This document shows, piece by piece, positions 9,727-17,281 of a stretch of DNA of 64,000 nt. The notes under the pieces were generated by a model, which did not search any database, was not told the origin of the DNA, and saw nothing but the letters and a program-made list of their open reading frames with translations. The position numbers and the translations under genes are program-made. The stretch spans positions 2,232,001-2,296,000 of the forward strand of contig NZ_JAUSQK010000001.1 of the NCBI RefSeq assembly GCF_030811115.1. Reading direction: 5' to 3'. Position 1 is the first letter of the stretch. Every line of letters begins with the position of its first letter. This stretch comes from Olsenella profusa DSM 13989. Its GTDB lineage: Bacteria; Actinomycetota; Coriobacteriia; Coriobacteriales; Atopobiaceae.

Positions 9727-10782
9727 TCAGCCGCCAGGGCGCTGGTCGGACAGGCTCCAGGCCTTGGGCACGTTGAGCTGCTCGTAGAGCCGGATGGCGT
9801 AGCGGTCGGTCATGCTGCTCACGTAGTCTGCCGCCTGGACGTCCACGGAGTCCTCCTCGTGAGAGCGATACTCGGCCGGCATTTCGTATGGATGGCATAC
9901 GAAGTGCGCAAACAGCTCCTCCACAAGATGCGCCGCCTTGGGCTCCTCCCGCTTGGCCTCACCACGGGAGTACAGGTTCTGGAACAGGAAGCCCCTCATC
10001 CTCATCATGGCATCCCACACCACATCGGACATGGCGATCTCGCTGCGCTGGGCACTCGCGCCGACCGCGTCGTGCACCATGGTCTCTATGCGCTCGGACG
10101 AGCTTGACCCCAGGATGTTGCGCAGATCCACGGGAAGCGACTCCTCGCTCAGGATGCCGGCACGCTTGGCGTCATCCATGTCGTGGGTCACATAGGCCAT
10201 GCGATCCGCCCGGGCGACCACCTGGCCCTCGAGCGTGTGGGCCGCCGTTCCTTGGTTGTGGTTGACGATGCCATCTATGACCTCTCGGGTGAGATTGAGG
10301 CCGCGACCATCCTTCTCCAGCAAGCAGACGATGCGGGCGCTCTGCTCATTGTGATGGAAGAGCCGTGGATCATCAGGGCCGCAGTGCAGCCTGCGTGCCA
10401 TGGCGCGCTGGAGCGCCCGCTCGCCGCAGTGCCCGAAGGGCGTGTGCCCCAGGTCATGACCAAGCGCTATGGCCTCCGTGAGGTCGACGTTGAGCCCCAG
10501 GGGGAGCGCGATGGCGCAGGCGATCTGGGCGACCTCGAGGGTATGCGTCAGGCGCGTGCGATAGTGATCCCCCTCTGGCGCCAGGAAGACCTGCGTCTTG
10601 TTGGCAAGGCGCCTGAAGCTCTTGCTGTGCAGGATCCTGTCGCGGTCGCACTGGAAACAGGTGCGCAGGGGATCCGGCGTCTCCTCCCGCACGCGGCCGG
10701 AGCTCTCGTCGGAATGGCAGGCCCGGGGGCTGAGCAGCTCGTGCTCGCGTCGCTCCAGGGTCTCTCGGTCGATGACGTCCAT
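9727..10782 (-). CDS. dgt: dGTP triphosphohydrolase-like HD protein
   Basis: HD-domain phosphohydrolase that splits dNTPs (typically dGTP) into nucleoside and triphosphate. 351 residues from ATG 10782 (GGGAGG 5 nt upstream). The N-terminal CDRDRILHSKSFRRLANKTQV block is characteristic (residues ~42-62), followed by RTRLTHTLEVAQIA (metal His), ALGHDLGHTPFGHCGE (HD motif) and MAYVTHDMDDA. The shorter length and sequence place it with the type 2 dGTPase-like group. Encoded downstream of ppdK, separated by a terminator. Confidence 0.92.
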   Translation of the reverse strand: MDVIDRETLERREHELLSPRACHSDESSGRVREETPDPLRTCFQCDRDRILHSKSFRRLANKTQVFLAPEGDHYRTRLTHTLEVAQIACAIALPLGLNVDLTEAIALGHDLGHTPFGHCGERALQRAMARRLHCGPDDPRLFHHNEQSARIVCLLEKDGRGLNLTREVIDGIVNHNQGTAAHTLEGQVVARADRMAYVTHDMDDAKRAGILSEESLPVDLRNILGSSSSERIETMVHDAVGASAQRSEIAMSDVVWDAMMRMRGFLFQNLYSRGEAKREEPKAAHLVEELFAHFVCHPYEMPAEYRSHEEDSVDVQAADYVSSMTDRYAIRLYEQLNVPKAWSLSDQRPGG

Positions 10783-10797
10783 ACATGCCTCCCGCAA

Positions 10798-10836
10798 AAA
10801 GGCAGGGGGAGAGGCCCCAAAAAGCCCCTCCCCCGT
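10798..10836 (-). terminator. Rho-independent terminator of ppdK
   Basis: A G+C-rich imperfect stem-loop read on the minus strand, with a T-rich loop (TTTTT at 10819-10823 on the complement) and a second T-run at 10797-10801 immediately after the stem. It lies about 25 nt after the ppdK stop codon. Confidence 0.75.
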
Positions 10837-10860
10837 CACAACGGCTCAGACCACGTGACC

Positions 10861-13626
10861 CTAGGCGAGCTTCCGGGGCCCGCCGTTGGAGCGAATCTTG
10901 GCCTGGGCGCCCGCAAGTCGTGCGATGGGCACGCGGTAGGGCGAGCAGGACACGTAGTCAAGGCCGATGTCATAGTACATCTGGATGGAGTCGGGGTCAC
11001 CGCCGGTCTCGCCGCACACGCCGCAGACGATGGTGTCGTTGGCGGCATGGCCACCCTTGACGCCCGTCTCGACCAGCTTTGCGACGCCGGGATCCAGCGT
11101 CTCGAACGGGTTGGCCTTGAGGATCTTCTTGGCAAGGTACTGCGGGATGAACGCAGACTCGACATCGTCGCGTGAGAAGCCAAAGGTGGTCTGCGTGAGG
11201 TCATTGGTGCCAAAGGAGAAGAAGTCGGCATACCTGCCGATCTCGTCGGCAGTCACGGCAGCGCGCGGAAGCTCGATCATGCAGCCGATGGGAATGGAGA
11301 GCTCGACGCCCTCGGCCTCCTCGATGGACCCGACGACCTTCTCGATCTGCTCGCGGACGAGCTTGAGCTCCTCGACGGTGGAGATGAGCGGCACCATGAT
11401 CTCGGGCTTGGGGTCGAGGCCCAGCTTCCTGAGCTTGGCGGCAGCACCGGCGATGGCGCGAACCTGCATGTCGTTGAGCTCGGGATAGACGATGCCCAGG
11501 CGGCAGCCGCGCAGGCCGAGCATGGGGTTGGCCTCCTGGAAGGAGTCCAGGCGGGCGAGACGCTCGCGCATGGCCGCAATCTGGGTCTCATTCTCGCCAC
11601 GACCCTCAGCATGGGCGATCTCGACGGCGAGCTCGCGCGGGTCATCGAGAAACTCATGCAGGGGCGGGTCGAGGAGGCGGACGATGACGGCCCTGCCGTC
11701 CATGGCCTTGAACATGCCCTCGAAGTCGCCGGTCTGCGCCTTGAGGAGCTGACCCAGGGCCTGCTGCTTCTGGCCGTCGGTGTCCGCGAGGATGAAGGAC
11801 TGGATGATCTGCTTGCGCTCGCCCAAAAACATGTGCTCCGTGCGGTCCAGGCCGATACCCTCGGCGCCGAAGTCCACGGAGAGCTGGGCATCCTCGGGAT
11901 TGTCGGCATTGGTGCGCACGCCGAAGATGCGGCCGCGGGAGGCATCGTGACGGACGTCATCGGCCCATTCGAGCATGGTCTCGAGGTCACCGGTGAGCTC
12001 GGGACGCGTCAGGGGCACCTCGCCCACGATGATGTCGCCCGTGGTGCCATTGATGGAGATGATGTCACCCTCGTGCAGGGTGACGCCCGTGCCGGAGATG
12101 GTGACCTCCTTCTTGTCGGCGTCGATCTTGAGCGCCTCGGCACCGCACACGCAGGGGGCACCCATGCCACGGGCGATGACGGCCGCATGGGACGTCTTGC
12201 CACCGTGGGAGGTGAGGATGCCCTCGGCGGCGACCATGCCCTTGAGATCGTCGGGCGTGGTCTCCCAGCGCACGAGGATGCAGGGCTTCTCGATGTGCTG
12301 GTAGTGAACGGCCGCGTCGGAGGAGAACACCACGGCACCCACGGCGGCACCGGGGCTGGCATTCATGCCCTTGGCCACGACGTCATAGGTGGCCTTGGGG
12401 TCGAACTGGGGGTGCAGCAGCTGATCAAGCTGATCGGGGGCGACGCGCAGGATGGCCTGCTCCTTGGAGATGCGACCCTCCTCGACCATCTGCATGGCCA
12501 CCTTGAGCGCGGAGAGCGCGGTGCGCTTGCCCACGCGGGTCTGCAGCATCCAGAGCTTGCCCTCCTGGATGGTGAACTCGAGATCCATCATGTCCGCGTA
12601 GTGGTCCTCGAGGATCTCGAACACGTGATAGAGGTCCCTGCCCGCCTGCTCGAGGCCCTTGACCTTGGGGAGGTCGGAGATGGGCTCGGTATTGCGGATG
12701 CCCGCCACGACGTCCTCGCCCTGGGCGTTGACCAAGAAGTCGCCATAGCGCTCGTTGGTGCCGTCTGCGGGGTTGCGTGTGAAGGCGACGCCGGTGGCGG
12801 AGGTGTCACCCATGTTGCCGAAGACCATCACCTGCACGTTGACGGCGGTGCCGAGGGAGTCGTCGATCTTGTTCTGCTTGCGGTACAGGACGGCGCGCTC
12901 GGTGTTCCAGGAGCCGAAGACGGCCTGCTCGGCGAGGCGCAGCTGCAGCAGGGGATCCTGGGGGAACGAGGCCTGGCCACCCGGCGCGACCTCGGGGTGG
13001 GCCTGGGAGTCGACGTTCTTGGCGAAGATGCCCTTGAAGGTCTCCGTGAGGCCCTTGAGGTCCTCGGCCGTGAGGTCGGTGTCGAGCCTGACGCCCCTCT
13101 CTGCCTTCTTCTCGTTGATGGCATCCTCGAAGAGCTGGCCGTCGACACCCATGACGACGTTGGAGAACATCTGGATGAAGCGACGGTAGGAGTCCCACCC
13201 GAAGCGCTCGTTGTTGGTCTTCTTGATGAGGCCCAGGACGGACTCATCGTTGAGGCCCAGGTTGAGGACCGTGTCCATCATGCCAGGCATCGAGAACGGC
13301 GCACCGGAGCGCACGGAGACGAGCAGCGGGTCGTCCGCGTCGCCGATCTTCTTGCCCATGCGCCGCTCGAGGTCGCGACGGTACTCGTCGATCTCGTCGA
13401 GCACGCCCTCGGGCCACACGTTGCCCGCGCTGGAGTAGGCAACGCAGGTCTGGCAGGTGATGGAGAATCCCGGAGGCACGGGAAGGCCGATGTTGGCCAT
13501 CTCGGCAAGGTTGGCACCCTTGCCACCCGTGATCCACTTGGCCTCATTGACAGTCTTGCCGGCGACCTCGGTCACGTTGTTACCGTTTTCGTCAACGCCG
13601 AAACGGTATACGTGCTTCTCAGCCAT
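10861..13626 (-). CDS. ppdK: Pyruvate, phosphate dikinase
   Basis: Interconverts pyruvate, ATP and phosphate with PEP, AMP and PPi; in anaerobes it can run glycolytically. 921 residues. The N-terminal nucleotide-binding domain starts FGVDENGNNVTE and has ITGGKGANLAEM. The central phosphohistidine domain has GGKTSHAAVIARGMGAPCV with the catalytic His. The C-terminal PEP/pyruvate TIM barrel carries GLRGCRLGI and CGETGGDP. Start ATG 13626 is preceded by GAGGGG. A PEP-forming enzyme feeds the shikimate operon in this window. A possible -10 TAAAAT lies at 13723-13728 without a clear -35. The gene for its usual regulator, immediately upstream, is truncated. Confidence 0.97.
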   Translation of the reverse strand: MAEKHVYRFGVDENGNNVTEVAGKTVNEAKWITGGKGANLAEMANIGLPVPPGFSITCQTCVAYSSAGNVWPEGVLDEIDEYRRDLERRMGKKIGDADDPLLVSVRSGAPFSMPGMMDTVLNLGLNDESVLGLIKKTNNERFGWDSYRRFIQMFSNVVMGVDGQLFEDAINEKKAERGVRLDTDLTAEDLKGLTETFKGIFAKNVDSQAHPEVAPGGQASFPQDPLLQLRLAEQAVFGSWNTERAVLYRKQNKIDDSLGTAVNVQVMVFGNMGDTSATGVAFTRNPADGTNERYGDFLVNAQGEDVVAGIRNTEPISDLPKVKGLEQAGRDLYHVFEILEDHYADMMDLEFTIQEGKLWMLQTRVGKRTALSALKVAMQMVEEGRISKEQAILRVAPDQLDQLLHPQFDPKATYDVVAKGMNASPGAAVGAVVFSSDAAVHYQHIEKPCILVRWETTPDDLKGMVAAEGILTSHGGKTSHAAVIARGMGAPCVCGAEALKIDADKKEVTISGTGVTLHEGDIISINGTTGDIIVGEVPLTRPELTGDLETMLEWADDVRHDASRGRIFGVRTNADNPEDAQLSVDFGAEGIGLDRTEHMFLGERKQIIQSFILADTDGQKQQALGQLLKAQTGDFEGMFKAMDGRAVIVRLLDPPLHEFLDDPRELAVEIAHAEGRGENETQIAAMRERLARLDSFQEANPMLGLRGCRLGIVYPELNDMQVRAIAGAAAKLRKLGLDPKPEIMVPLISTVEELKLVREQIEKVVGSIEEAEGVELSIPIGCMIELPRAAVTADEIGRYADFFSFGTNDLTQTTFGFSRDDVESAFIPQYLAKKILKANPFETLDPGVAKLVETGVKGGHAANDTIVCGVCGETGGDPDSIQMYYDIGLDYVSCSPYRVPIARLAGAQAKIRSNGGPRKLA

Positions 13627-13816
13627 ATAACACCCCTCATCGTCTCTTGGGCGCATGCTCATGCGTCCCCCCTTATGTGAGGAACTGCCCCGGCAAGGCC
13701 AGAGGCAGCTCCCGTGTGCCACATTTTATTCTTTCTCAGCCCACATGCCACTCTCCCGTCACATCTCTGGACGGGCGAAATAGGCGGCGGGCGACAACGA
13801 GCTCCAGAGAGCCAGC

Positions 13817-14224
13817 CTACTGGACGGTGGGAGCCTCGTTGTTGGAGCGACGGCCCGCCTGGTACTTGGGTTCGGTGTCCGTAAGCGTCGAGATGATCGT
13901 GATGGCAGGTCCCAAGAGGTCGATGCTGGGAACGCCCCTGCCATCAAGCTCGCGGCGTATGTCCCTGCGGAGGTTGCGGTTCACGATCGTGTGAAAGACG
14001 GCAACCGGAACACCGGGAACGATGTTGTCATCAAGGAACTTGGCAACCATGTCCACGGTCTTCACGTTGCCCAGCCGAAGAATCTGGATGCAGCCATCGT
14101 CAAACTGGTCGGCGGCGGCCTCCACGACACTCGCGGCGGTCTTGCCACGCGCATCGGAGATGACCAGCACGACAGGCGTGGCGTTCTCGTTGGAGCGTGT
14201 AGTCTCGAGCGTGTCCTCAGGCAT
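13817..14224 (-). CDS. Truncated PPDK regulatory protein-like (DUF299), N-terminal half only
   Basis: The family (PDRP/PpsR) is a ~270-residue kinase/pyrophosphorylase that switches PPDK or PEP synthase on and off. This frame is only 135 residues. It matches the family's N-terminal half: VVLVISDARGKTAASVVEAA, then RRDIRRELDGRGVPSIDLLG and PAITIISTLTDTEP. The P-loop kinase half, including the VGVSRTSKTP region, is absent, and no frame in the 190 bp before ppdK restores it. The start at ATG 14224 has GGGAGG 8 nt upstream, so it may still be translated. Located directly upstream of ppdK, the expected partner gene. Either a pseudogene or a retained partial-domain protein. Confidence 0.72.
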   Translation of the reverse strand: MPEDTLETTRSNENATPVVLVISDARGKTAASVVEAAADQFDDGCIQILRLGNVKTVDMVAKFLDDNIVPGVPVAVFHTIVNRNLRRDIRRELDGRGVPSIDLLGPAITIISTLTDTEPKYQAGRRSNNEAPTVQ

Positions 14225-14269
14225 TGGTGAAGCCTCCCAAATTCGTACCCCGGTGTTGCCAGGAACCAT

Positions 14270-16369
14270 CTACCCCTTCGTGCGGGAGAGGAAGCCGATG
14301 TCTGCCACATCGGCGAAGACGGCGGCAAAGCGATTGAGCAGGCGCAGTCGGTTCTCCCGTAGCCCAGTGTCCTCGTCCATGACAAGTACGTCATCAAAGA
14401 ATCGGTCGATGGGCCCTCTTAGTTCCGCAAGTGCTGCACAGGCCTCCCCATAGGCACCCGTGCTCAACGCATTCTTCACATTCCGGTCACCCCGTTCGCA
14501 CGCATCGAGCAGAGCGCGCTCCGCTGAACCGAGCCTGCGGACATCGACGGCGGTGCCCAGGGAGGCATCCGCCAGATGGGCGGCGCGGGTATAGGCGGTC
14601 GCGAGGTCCTCGAAGACCTCGCGGGCACCGTCATGCGCGTCCTGCAGCGCACGCCCACGGGCAAGGAACTCGGCGGGGTCGATGACGTCCACGGCCGAGA
14701 CGGCATCGATGATGTCGGGGGAGATGCCCTCGTCGCGCGCGATGATGCGCAGGCGGCCCTTGAAGAAGTCGCGCACCCTGCCCGCGGCCTCGGCCTTGTC
14801 GAACGAGAGGCCCTGCTCGAGATAGGCATCGAGCGACGTGGAGACGAGCCTTGCGAGCGAGACCGTGGGAAGCTCCCTCAGCAGGGCGACGCACCCGATG
14901 GCGGCACGACGCACGGCAAAGGGGTCGGAGGAACCGGTTGGTGCCTCGTCGATGGCAAAGATGCCACAGACGGTGTCGAGCTTGTCGGCAATGGCGACCG
15001 CCTTGCCCACGCGGCCGGAAGGCAGCTCGTCACCGGCGAAGCGGGGTCGATAGTGCTCGCGAATGGCGCGCGCGACCTCGTCCGGCTCGCCCTGCGCCCG
15101 CGCGTAGTAGCCGCCCATGACCCCCTGCTGGTTTGTGAACTCCACGACGGCCTGGCTGACGAGGTCGGCCTTGGACAGGTGTGCGGCACGGGCGGCGAGG
15201 GGGGCATCCTCCGCATGGCCGGCACCCTCCATGACGGCGGGCGCGATGCGCTCCATGCGATGGGTCTTCTGCAGGACGGTGCCCAGCCTCTCCTGGAACG
15301 TCACCGTGGAGAGGCGTTCGACGAAGTCCTCGAGCGGATGCTTGAGATCCTCCTCGAAGAAGAACTTGGCGTCGTCGAGGCGGGCGCGCACGACGCGCTC
15401 GTTGCCATCGATGACGGTGGAATCCACGGCGGGGTCGGCGTTGGACACGACGACGAACTCACGGGTGAGCATACCGTTCGCATCATAGAGGGGAAAGTAG
15501 CGTTGGTTGGAGAGCATGGAGTCACAGATGATCTCCGGCGGCACATCAAGGAAACCCTCGTCGAAGGTGCCCACAAGCACATGGGGCCACTCGGTGAGGT
15601 TGACGACCTCGTCAAAGATGCGCCTGGGCATGTCCACATGGGCGCCACCACGTGCCGCTTCGACCTCGGCGACGCCGGCTCGGATGACCTCGCCACGCTC
15701 ACGCTCGCCCATGACGTATGCGTCGTGCAGCACGTCCACATAGTGGGCCGCGTCGGGCACGACATGCTCGCCCGGCCCCATCACGCGATGGCCGCGGGTG
15801 GTGTTGGAGCTCTCGACTCCTGCATAGCGCACGGGCACGACGTCCGTGCCCAGAAGGCAGCAGATCCACCGAATGGGGCGCACGAAGCCCTGATGCTCGT
15901 TCCCCCAACGCTGACTGCGGTAGTTGGGCCACTCGAGGGAGGCGATGGCATCCTCGCAGAGCGCGGAGAGCAGGGGTGCCGCGGGCCTCGAGGCCACGCG
16001 ATGCTCCGCAAACACGTACTCACGCCCGTCATCGTCAACGCGCCTGATGAGGTCGATGGGATCGACGCCCATCTTGCGGGCAAAGCCCTGGGCGGCCTTC
16101 GTGGGCGTGCCGTCCTCGGCAAAGGCGATCCGTGTCGCCGGGCCACGGTTGGTCTCGCTGATCTCCTCCGTGGCCGTGGCGACAGCCGCCACCATCACGG
16201 TCAGGCGGCGGGGCGTGGAGAGGGTGCTCACCGCACCGTGTGCGAGGCCCGCATCCGTAAGGGCCCCGTCAACCAGCTCACCGAGCTGCCGCTGCGCATG
16301 CATGAGCGGGGCGGAGGGCATCTCCTCGCAGCCGATCTCCAGCAGGAGGTCCTTGGTCGTCTCTGCCAT
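14270..16369 (-). CDS. glyS: Glycyl-tRNA synthetase beta subunit
   Basis: Forms the alpha2beta2 glycyl-tRNA synthetase with GlyQ and contributes tRNA recognition. 699 residues, full length. It starts TTKDLLLEIGCEEMPS, a signature of the family, and contains GHRVMGPGEH, an HD-like central region (about 330-400) and a C-terminal anticodon-binding domain. The start codon ATG 16369 directly abuts the glyQ stop codon, so translation is coupled. Followed by the truncated PDRP gene after 45 bp. Confidence 0.97.
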   Translation of the reverse strand: MAETTKDLLLEIGCEEMPSAPLMHAQRQLGELVDGALTDAGLAHGAVSTLSTPRRLTVMVAAVATATEEISETNRGPATRIAFAEDGTPTKAAQGFARKMGVDPIDLIRRVDDDGREYVFAEHRVASRPAAPLLSALCEDAIASLEWPNYRSQRWGNEHQGFVRPIRWICCLLGTDVVPVRYAGVESSNTTRGHRVMGPGEHVVPDAAHYVDVLHDAYVMGERERGEVIRAGVAEVEAARGGAHVDMPRRIFDEVVNLTEWPHVLVGTFDEGFLDVPPEIICDSMLSNQRYFPLYDANGMLTREFVVVSNADPAVDSTVIDGNERVVRARLDDAKFFFEEDLKHPLEDFVERLSTVTFQERLGTVLQKTHRMERIAPAVMEGAGHAEDAPLAARAAHLSKADLVSQAVVEFTNQQGVMGGYYARAQGEPDEVARAIREHYRPRFAGDELPSGRVGKAVAIADKLDTVCGIFAIDEAPTGSSDPFAVRRAAIGCVALLRELPTVSLARLVSTSLDAYLEQGLSFDKAEAAGRVRDFFKGRLRIIARDEGISPDIIDAVSAVDVIDPAEFLARGRALQDAHDGAREVFEDLATAYTRAAHLADASLGTAVDVRRLGSAERALLDACERGDRNVKNALSTGAYGEACAALAELRGPIDRFFDDVLVMDEDTGLRENRLRLLNRFAAVFADVADIGFLSRTKG

Positions 16370-17281
16370 CTAGGCCACCTCCCTCGTGGAGGCGGACGCA
16401 GGCGTCTTCGACGCCACCTCCGCGAGGTAGGCCTCGCAGCATGCCTTGGCCACGGCGCGCACGCGCAGGATGTAGTTGGCACGCTCGGTTGCCGAGATGG
16501 CGCCGCGCGAATCGAGCAGGTTGAAGGCGTGACTGCACTTCATGACGCAGTCGTAGGCCGGAAGGGGCAGCCTGCGGTCGAGGCAGGCGTGGCACTCGGC
16601 CTCGTACTCGTCGAACTTCTCTCGCATGAGCGCGACGTTGGCCACCTCGAAGTTGTAGGTCGAGAACTCGCGCTCGTTCTCGAGGAAGACGTCACCGTAC
16701 GTCATGGGCATGCCATCGGGCAGGTGGCTCCACACGATGTCGTAGACGGAGTCGACGCCCTGGGCGTACATGGCGATGCGCTCGAGGCCGTAGGTGACCT
16801 CCACGGGCACGGGGTCGACCTCGATACCGCCCACCTGCTGGAAGTAGGTGAACTGGGTGACCTCCATGCCGTCCATCCACACCTCCCAGCCGAGACCCCA
16901 GGCACCCAGCGTGGGACTCTCCCAGTCGTCCTCCACGAAGCGGACGTCGTGCTCGGCGGGATCGAGGCCGATGGCACGAAGCGATCCCAGGTAGAGGTCC
17001 TGGGAGTCGACCGGGGACGGCTTGAGGATCACCTGGTACTGATAGTAGTGCTGCATGCGGTTGGGGTTCTCGCCGTAGCGACCGTCGGTGGGGCGGCGGC
17101 AGGGCTGCGCGTAGCAGGTGCGCCAGGCATCGGGTCCCAGCGAGCGCAGGAGCGTGGCCGTATGGAAGGTGCCCGCGCCCACCTCGCTGTCGTAGGGCTG
17201 CATGACGGTGCAACCCTGCGCGGCCCAATAGTGCTCAAGGGCCAAGATCATATCCTGAAAGGTAAGTGGCTGTACGCTCAT
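16370..17281 (-). CDS. glyQ: Glycyl-tRNA synthetase alpha subunit
   Basis: Catalytic (class II aminoacyl-tRNA synthetase) subunit. 303 residues. Strongly conserved segments are [57 protein letters not shown] (here [19 protein letters not shown]) and [20 protein letters not shown]. Start ATG 17281 is preceded by an A+G-rich AGAGGA SD; an in-frame upstream start would overlap lepB. Lies 22 bp after lepB and directly before glyS. Confidence 0.98.

Follow-up and report, generated by a model that had tools for sequence, protein, structure and literature searches.

Immediately upstream of the pyruvate phosphate dikinase gene, ppdK, of Olsenella profusa DSM 13989 lies a gene that encodes only the first half of a regulatory protein of the PDRP (DUF299) family. 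According to the accessible part of PMC8100219, PDRP uses ADP to phosphorylate one residue of pyruvate phosphate dikinase (PPDK), and Pi to remove the phosphate again. This locus immediately raises two questions. First, is the half gene decaying, or is it maintained? Second, if it is maintained, what could a PDRP do after its catalytic half has gone, and to which partner? The window, by which we mean the whole stretch of 64,000 nucleotides that was analysed, contains the following relevant features.

13817–14224, minus strand: stand-alone PDRP N-terminal domain gene (the half gene); ORF of 135 aa plus stop, with a Shine-Dalgarno sequence; PF03618
14233–14238, minus strand: Shine-Dalgarno sequence GGGAGG, 8 nt before the ATG of the half gene, read from the sequence
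14135–14158, minus strand: loop SDARGKTA, codons 23–30 of the half gene, aligned to SDGTGWTA of maize PDRP (5d0n_A)
13627–13816, minus strand: 190-bp gap between the half gene and ppdK, with no C-domain remnant by tblastn
10861–13626, minus strand: ppdK, pyruvate phosphate dikinase, 921 aa, the presumed partner; PF01326, PF00391 and PF02896; TIGR01828 at 1201.7 bits
12166–12204, minus strand: PPDK codons 475–487, GGKTSHAAVIARG, with Thr 478 (the PDRP target) and His 480 (catalytic), both assigned from the maize enzyme
14270–16369, minus strand: glyS, the next gene upstream, separated from the half gene by 45 bp; adjoins the half or PDRP gene in 50 slot loci
16370–17281, minus strand: glyQ, next to glyS
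9727–10839, minus strand: dgt-like HD phosphohydrolase gene downstream of ppdK, start uncertain; PF01966 and PF13286; assigned with synteny

A PDRP N-terminal domain without its catalytic half

The half gene starts with the ATG at 14224 and stays open for 135 codons down to 13817. Residues 19–128 of its product match positions 1–108 of the 256 positions of PF03618 above the cut-off (57.5 bits against 23.5; E 2.1e-15), whereas the cut-off of the whole-protein model NF003742 is not reached (57.3 of 225 bits). The preliminary description, which had noted a clean Shine-Dalgarno sequence and reading frame and only the first ~135 residues of a DUF299 protein beside ppdK, is borne out on both points. 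The HDDG and G..R..KTP motifs, which hold the catalytic residues of the PDRP C-domain, occur unchanged in all 11 full-length relatives that were aligned and are absent from the half protein, whose C-domain is missing. The half gene is thus a PDRP/DUF299 N-terminal domain without the catalytic half. Compared with PDRP/PpsR, the regulator of PPDK or PEP synthetase (DUF299, PF03618, NF003742), to which it is homologous over PF03618 positions 1–108 and with which it shares the glyS/ppdK slot, it gives a product of 135 aa in place of about 280–300 aa and lacks the C-terminal catalytic domain with its HDDG and GVSRTxKTP-type motifs. PDRP itself is already known; what is new here is a PDRP without its catalytic half. 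The GC3 of the half gene is 0.785, and that of its neighbours 0.82–0.90.

The half gene occupies the slot that holds a full-length PDRP gene in relatives. The loci that were read have the order glyQ-glyS-PDRP or half gene-ppdK, mostly followed by dgt, and the same glyQ-glyS-PDRP-ppdK slot is found in the outgroup loci L088 (family f10) and L089 (family f2). A scan of positions 13400–14500 for promoters and terminators gave one promoter-like site at 13751–13723 on the minus strand, with 0.4 expected, and no terminator, with 0.8 expected. A regulatory RNA in the 190-bp gap was considered and rejected, as Rfam gave no match there at the gathering score; the window has one tRNA elsewhere.

Loss of the catalytic half and selection on the remainder

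A PF03618 match is present in 131 of 140 genomes of the GTDB family of the window, Atopobiaceae, whose members live in the gut and mouth. Only 15 genomes, from 10 of the 35 genera, have a whole-profile match, and the other matches, among those listed, end at profile positions 105–133. The remaining 116 of the 131 positive genomes (the weakest rows are not among the matches listed) include G082, in which the match is shortened only by a contig end. Two high-quality genomes, G071 and G030, give no PF03618 match at E<=0.001. Since G071 has a weak PF03618 fragment at a contig end, and about 346 bases lie between a contig end and the start of ppdK in G030, the half gene may be missing only from these assemblies. 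In a scan of named genomes, 80 loci were kept of 125 found, with 76 being of half length (123–137 aa) and 4 of full length; Olsenella, Parafannyhessea, Thermophilibacter, Tractidigestivibacter, Olegusella and Atopobium are among the genera. The comparison with close relatives that had been proposed for this locus hence gives a half form and a slot that are common across Atopobiaceae, and the recent local loss that the preliminary description implied does not stand: the truncation runs through the family and is no peculiarity of the O. profusa genome.

Outside the family, the PF03618 matches in a sample of 297 genomes of the order are full length among the matches listed. In the phylum sample, profile A4 finds matches in 48 of 396 genomes, and each of the 38 matches that are not from Atopobiaceae sits in a reading frame open for 268 aa or more. 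Halves in G231, G234 and G249 are only apparent, as they run into contig ends. Within the samples searched, all from one phylum, the half form is seen only in Atopobiaceae. In L188 (G280, of another family, 99% complete), the N- and C-terminal parts of PDRP are in different frames.

Is the catalytic half hidden somewhere else? When seven C-terminal domains were compared by tblastn with the region from −450 to +1200 of the stop codon in 134 half loci, paralogues included, only two weak matches were obtained (E 0.037 and 0.092), both in the paralogue locus L071, while the positive control recovered the C-domain in 18 of 18 full-length loci. The O. profusa genome (G000; 2.6 Mb, one contig, 99.96% complete) contains no second PF03618 match at E<=0.001, and a C-domain query finds nothing in it at E<=10, with all four control genomes matched at E<=1e-51; a catalytic half split off into a separate gene is accordingly rejected for this genome. 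It had been stated that the kinase/pyrophosphorylase half is not recoverable from the 190 bp before ppdK, and a search for a full-length PDRP elsewhere had been recommended; the first agrees with the tblastn result at this locus, and the second came back empty. A sequencing or assembly error that conceals a full-length gene, the one objection that had been raised in advance, is excluded because the half gene of O. profusa F0195 (L105) is 100% identical and the same half-length match occurs in many genomes.

The half genes have a median dN/dS of 0.085 (range 0.015–0.267; Nei-Gojobori, 41 pairs), which compares with 0.067 for ppdK (36 pairs) and 0.139 for glyS (40 pairs). The pairs have proteins at least 75% alike and dS of 0.15–1.5, and use no locus twice; some genomes enter twice, and L049–L057 and L121–L124 are the same genome pair. 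The half gene is under strong purifying selection, and with such a low dN/dS it is not decaying; neither of the marks of a pseudogene that were looked for, relaxed selection and catalytic-domain debris, is found in it. A decaying remnant or an assembly artefact would account for a protein of half the family's length, but it is already contradicted by the dN/dS values, the lack of debris at the half loci, and the half-length match both in the F0195 assembly and in most PF03618-positive genomes of the family, and we give it practically no credence.

How often was the catalytic domain lost? In a tree of GlyQ, GlyS and PPDK from 51 loci (37 half, 14 full), built by a quick method without bootstrap, 5 changes of the half/full label are required, and branches with an SH-aLRT of 95 or more impose 4 of them. 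Outside the main half group stand L053 and L054, the latter on a long branch; nested inside it are the full-length L093 and L094, from fragmented MAGs, which may reflect regain by recombination or further losses. In a tree of the N-domain, which is short, with few columns and an unsettled bootstrap, the main halves, L054 included, group together (85/91), L053 stands apart, and the half-length paralogues described below form a separate branch (99/99). The tree topologies suggest that the catalytic domain was lost more than once.

Conserved loop and predicted fold

The SDxxGxT loop is kept in the halves: Ser23, Asp24 and Gly27 are present in 100%, and Thr29 in 99%, of 112 half rows, into which some genomes enter twice. 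Arg26 (95%), Arg87 (99%) and Arg91 (88%) are typical of the halves and not of the 18 full-length rows. The half protein is predicted by AlphaFold2 to be an alpha/beta domain; the mean pLDDT is 83.6, and 77 of its 135 residues reach 90 or above. The model superposes on residues 126–231 of maize PDRP (5d0n) with a Z of 8.9 and an rmsd of 5.4 over 95 residues at 22% identity. In the fold search, scores like that of 5d0n are also reached by designed P-loop and Rossmann proteins, and the predicted fold alone assigns no function to the half protein. By sequence, the half profile A3 finds residues 125–232 of 5d0n_A, the N-domain of maize PDRP, with E 1.1e-7; the single half protein reaches only E 0.037. 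Different from maize PDRP1 (5d0n, 5d1f), in which the N-domain is part of a two-domain enzyme, the O. profusa half stands alone.

The title of the 5d0n entry reads 'maize PDRP bound with AMP' and does not give the location of the ligand. Jiang et al. are said to have located the AMP in the N-domain in 2016. As described in the accessible part of PMC9138534, the two domains of PDRP have a common fold, each with a P-loop; the one active site belongs to the C-domain, and an allosteric role has been proposed for the N-domain. No sequence alignment is obtained between the profiles of the N- and C-domains (hhalign probability 0.4), so that the equivalence of the loops in the two domains rests on the literature. 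The disulfide pair Cys165/Cys171 of maize PDRP, reported in the accessible part of PMC6019023, is unmatched here, as the half protein of the window has a single cysteine (45) and the half consensus has none.

Two full-length PDRPs, L066:8582-9415 and L067:8596-9429 (G058 and G059), carry the P-loop GLSGSAKTPLA instead of GVSRTSKTPLS, which may be another way in which PDRP catalysis was lost. In both genomes ppdK is also elsewhere, and it falls outside the family group in the tree.

Possible partners of the half protein

The presumed partner is PPDK. Its gene is within the same fetched locus in 45 of the 50 slot loci. In G017, G024, G025 and G026, the half gene stays by glyS while ppdK is elsewhere in the genome; the relocated ppdK is native by its tree position in G017, G024 and G026, the three tested, and in L218 (G024) and L215 (G026) dgt has moved together with ppdK and left the half gene behind by glyQS. 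The linkage of the half gene to glyS is therefore more stable than that to ppdK. A mirror-tree comparison (42 loci after thinning from 65) gave partial r values with the half of 0.58 for dgt, 0.19 for PPDK, 0.08 for glyQ and 0.02 for glyS; it did not single out PPDK as partner, dgt being highest.

The threonine of PPDK that PDRP modifies and the catalytic histidine are Thr527 and His529 in maize, as given in the accessible part of PMC9138534. The corresponding segment GGKTSHAAVIARG does not vary among the half loci (35 of 35) or among the full-length loci with sequence there (10 of 11). Such conservation of the threonine says little, because it is kept in the full-length loci too and lies two residues from the catalytic histidine. 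Thirteen PPDK positions separate the half from the full lineages; at residue 457, upstream of the regulatory threonine, L053 and those full-length loci that have data have N, and the 34 other half rows T. These 13 positions follow the phylogeny too closely, and no co-adaptation of PPDK is claimed from them. The PPDK of L079 has an insertion of 23 residues after residue 411 of the window PPDK, and in other loci, e.g. L068 and L046, the PPDK matches are longer by a similar amount.

Some genomes carry further half-length copies of 123–146 aa with an SDxxGxT-type loop, which are 33–48% identical to the half protein of the window and lie in other operons; no copy of the two types described here is found in O. 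profusa G000 at E<=0.001. Type C copies (L036, L040, L047, L069, L071, L080, L082, L096–L100 and L102) lie directly downstream of a glycyl-radical activase gene and divergent from a glycyl-radical enzyme gene in 13 of 13 loci. The neighbour families are TIGR02494 and TIGR01774 (from L040), the enzyme is of the PFL2/glycerol-dehydratase type, and a fructose-6-phosphate-aldolase-like gene is present in 12 of the 13, the contig ending first in L099. Type B copies are near deoC (TIGR00126, from L041) in all five distinct loci: directly downstream of it in L034, L041, L042 and L045, and about 1 kb away in L048; a GntR regulator is present in 4 of the 5. For the further copies L039, L051 and L101 no partner was recognised. 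The reuse of the stand-alone N-domain in other carbon-metabolism operons argues for a function of its own, and PPDK need not be its sole partner.

We propose, tentatively and with somewhat less than even confidence, that the half protein is a working regulatory N-domain that acts in trans as a ligand-sensing partner of PPDK, the covalent control by PDRP having gone. In the ancestors from which most Atopobiaceae descend, a clean deletion close to the boundary between the two domains would have removed the C-terminal kinase/pyrophosphorylase domain, with the N-domain remaining beside glyQS and, as a rule, ppdK. PPDK would thereby escape ADP/Pi-dependent covalent control by PDRP and be tuned instead by the half protein as a nucleotide-sensing binding partner; the paralogues beside the glycyl-radical activase and deoC could be the same module serving other enzymes. 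The earlier suggestion that PPDK has lost reversible phosphorylation control is upheld in part: the PDRP catalytic domain is gone from the genome, but the target threonine is kept at every half locus compared. Likewise, a role for the half is favoured by its family-wide presence, purifying selection and paralogue operons, but the role need not be new, as it may be the old regulation by the N-domain.

The main rival, which we regard as somewhat unlikely, holds that the half protein is functional as a general small-molecule-binding module whose partner is not PPDK, the adjacency to ppdK being inherited from the full-length gene. The four genomes in which the half gene stays with glyS, the paralogues with glycyl-radical enzyme, activase and aldolase genes or with deoC, and the strongest co-divergence being with dgt all speak for it. 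Against it stand the frequent presence of ppdK in the slot loci and the finding of a TIGR01828 match in all 101 high-quality genomes of the family at E<=0.001, a threshold that admits weak paralogues.

Could another kinase phosphorylate Thr478, with the half protein as its adaptor? The conserved threonine would fit, but its equal conservation in the full-length loci and its closeness to the catalytic histidine leave this argument little force, and kinase candidates were looked for via PF03618 only; we hold such an adaptor improbable. Still further down, and very improbable, is a minimal enzyme in which a P-loop-like lysine gained in the loop (SDARGKT) lets the half protein itself transfer phosphate. 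Lys28 occurs in the half protein of the window and in 27% of the 112 half rows, where the 18 full-length rows mostly have D or E; however, position 28 is E in 58% of the half rows, and the HDDG motif of the C-domain has no counterpart in the half protein.

To extend the trans-acting partner of PPDK to all the copies is more speculative, and we consider it rather doubtful: the stand-alone PDRP N-domains may together be a new regulator family, small and non-catalytic, that senses adenine nucleotides. Its members would have arisen as the kinase domain was repeatedly deleted, and duplication would have spread them; by binding in trans they would control PPDK, the glycyl-radical enzyme and its activase, and the deoC operon, so that allostery replaces covalent control. 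A stand-alone PDRP N-domain appears in no title or abstract among the literature matches listed, in a search with most subscription papers outside its scope.

Most of Atopobiaceae thus offers a natural domain-deletion experiment, in which the non-catalytic domain of PDRP has been retained, usually beside the same target, and has also been reused beside other carbon-metabolism enzymes. So far the role of this second, non-catalytic domain has only been proposed, as far as the accessible part of PMC9138534 goes. Because the N-domain is kept here without catalysis, its role can be tested directly with a 135-residue protein; and with the catalytic domain absent, a kinase/pyrophosphorylase label would mislead metabolic models of these bacteria.
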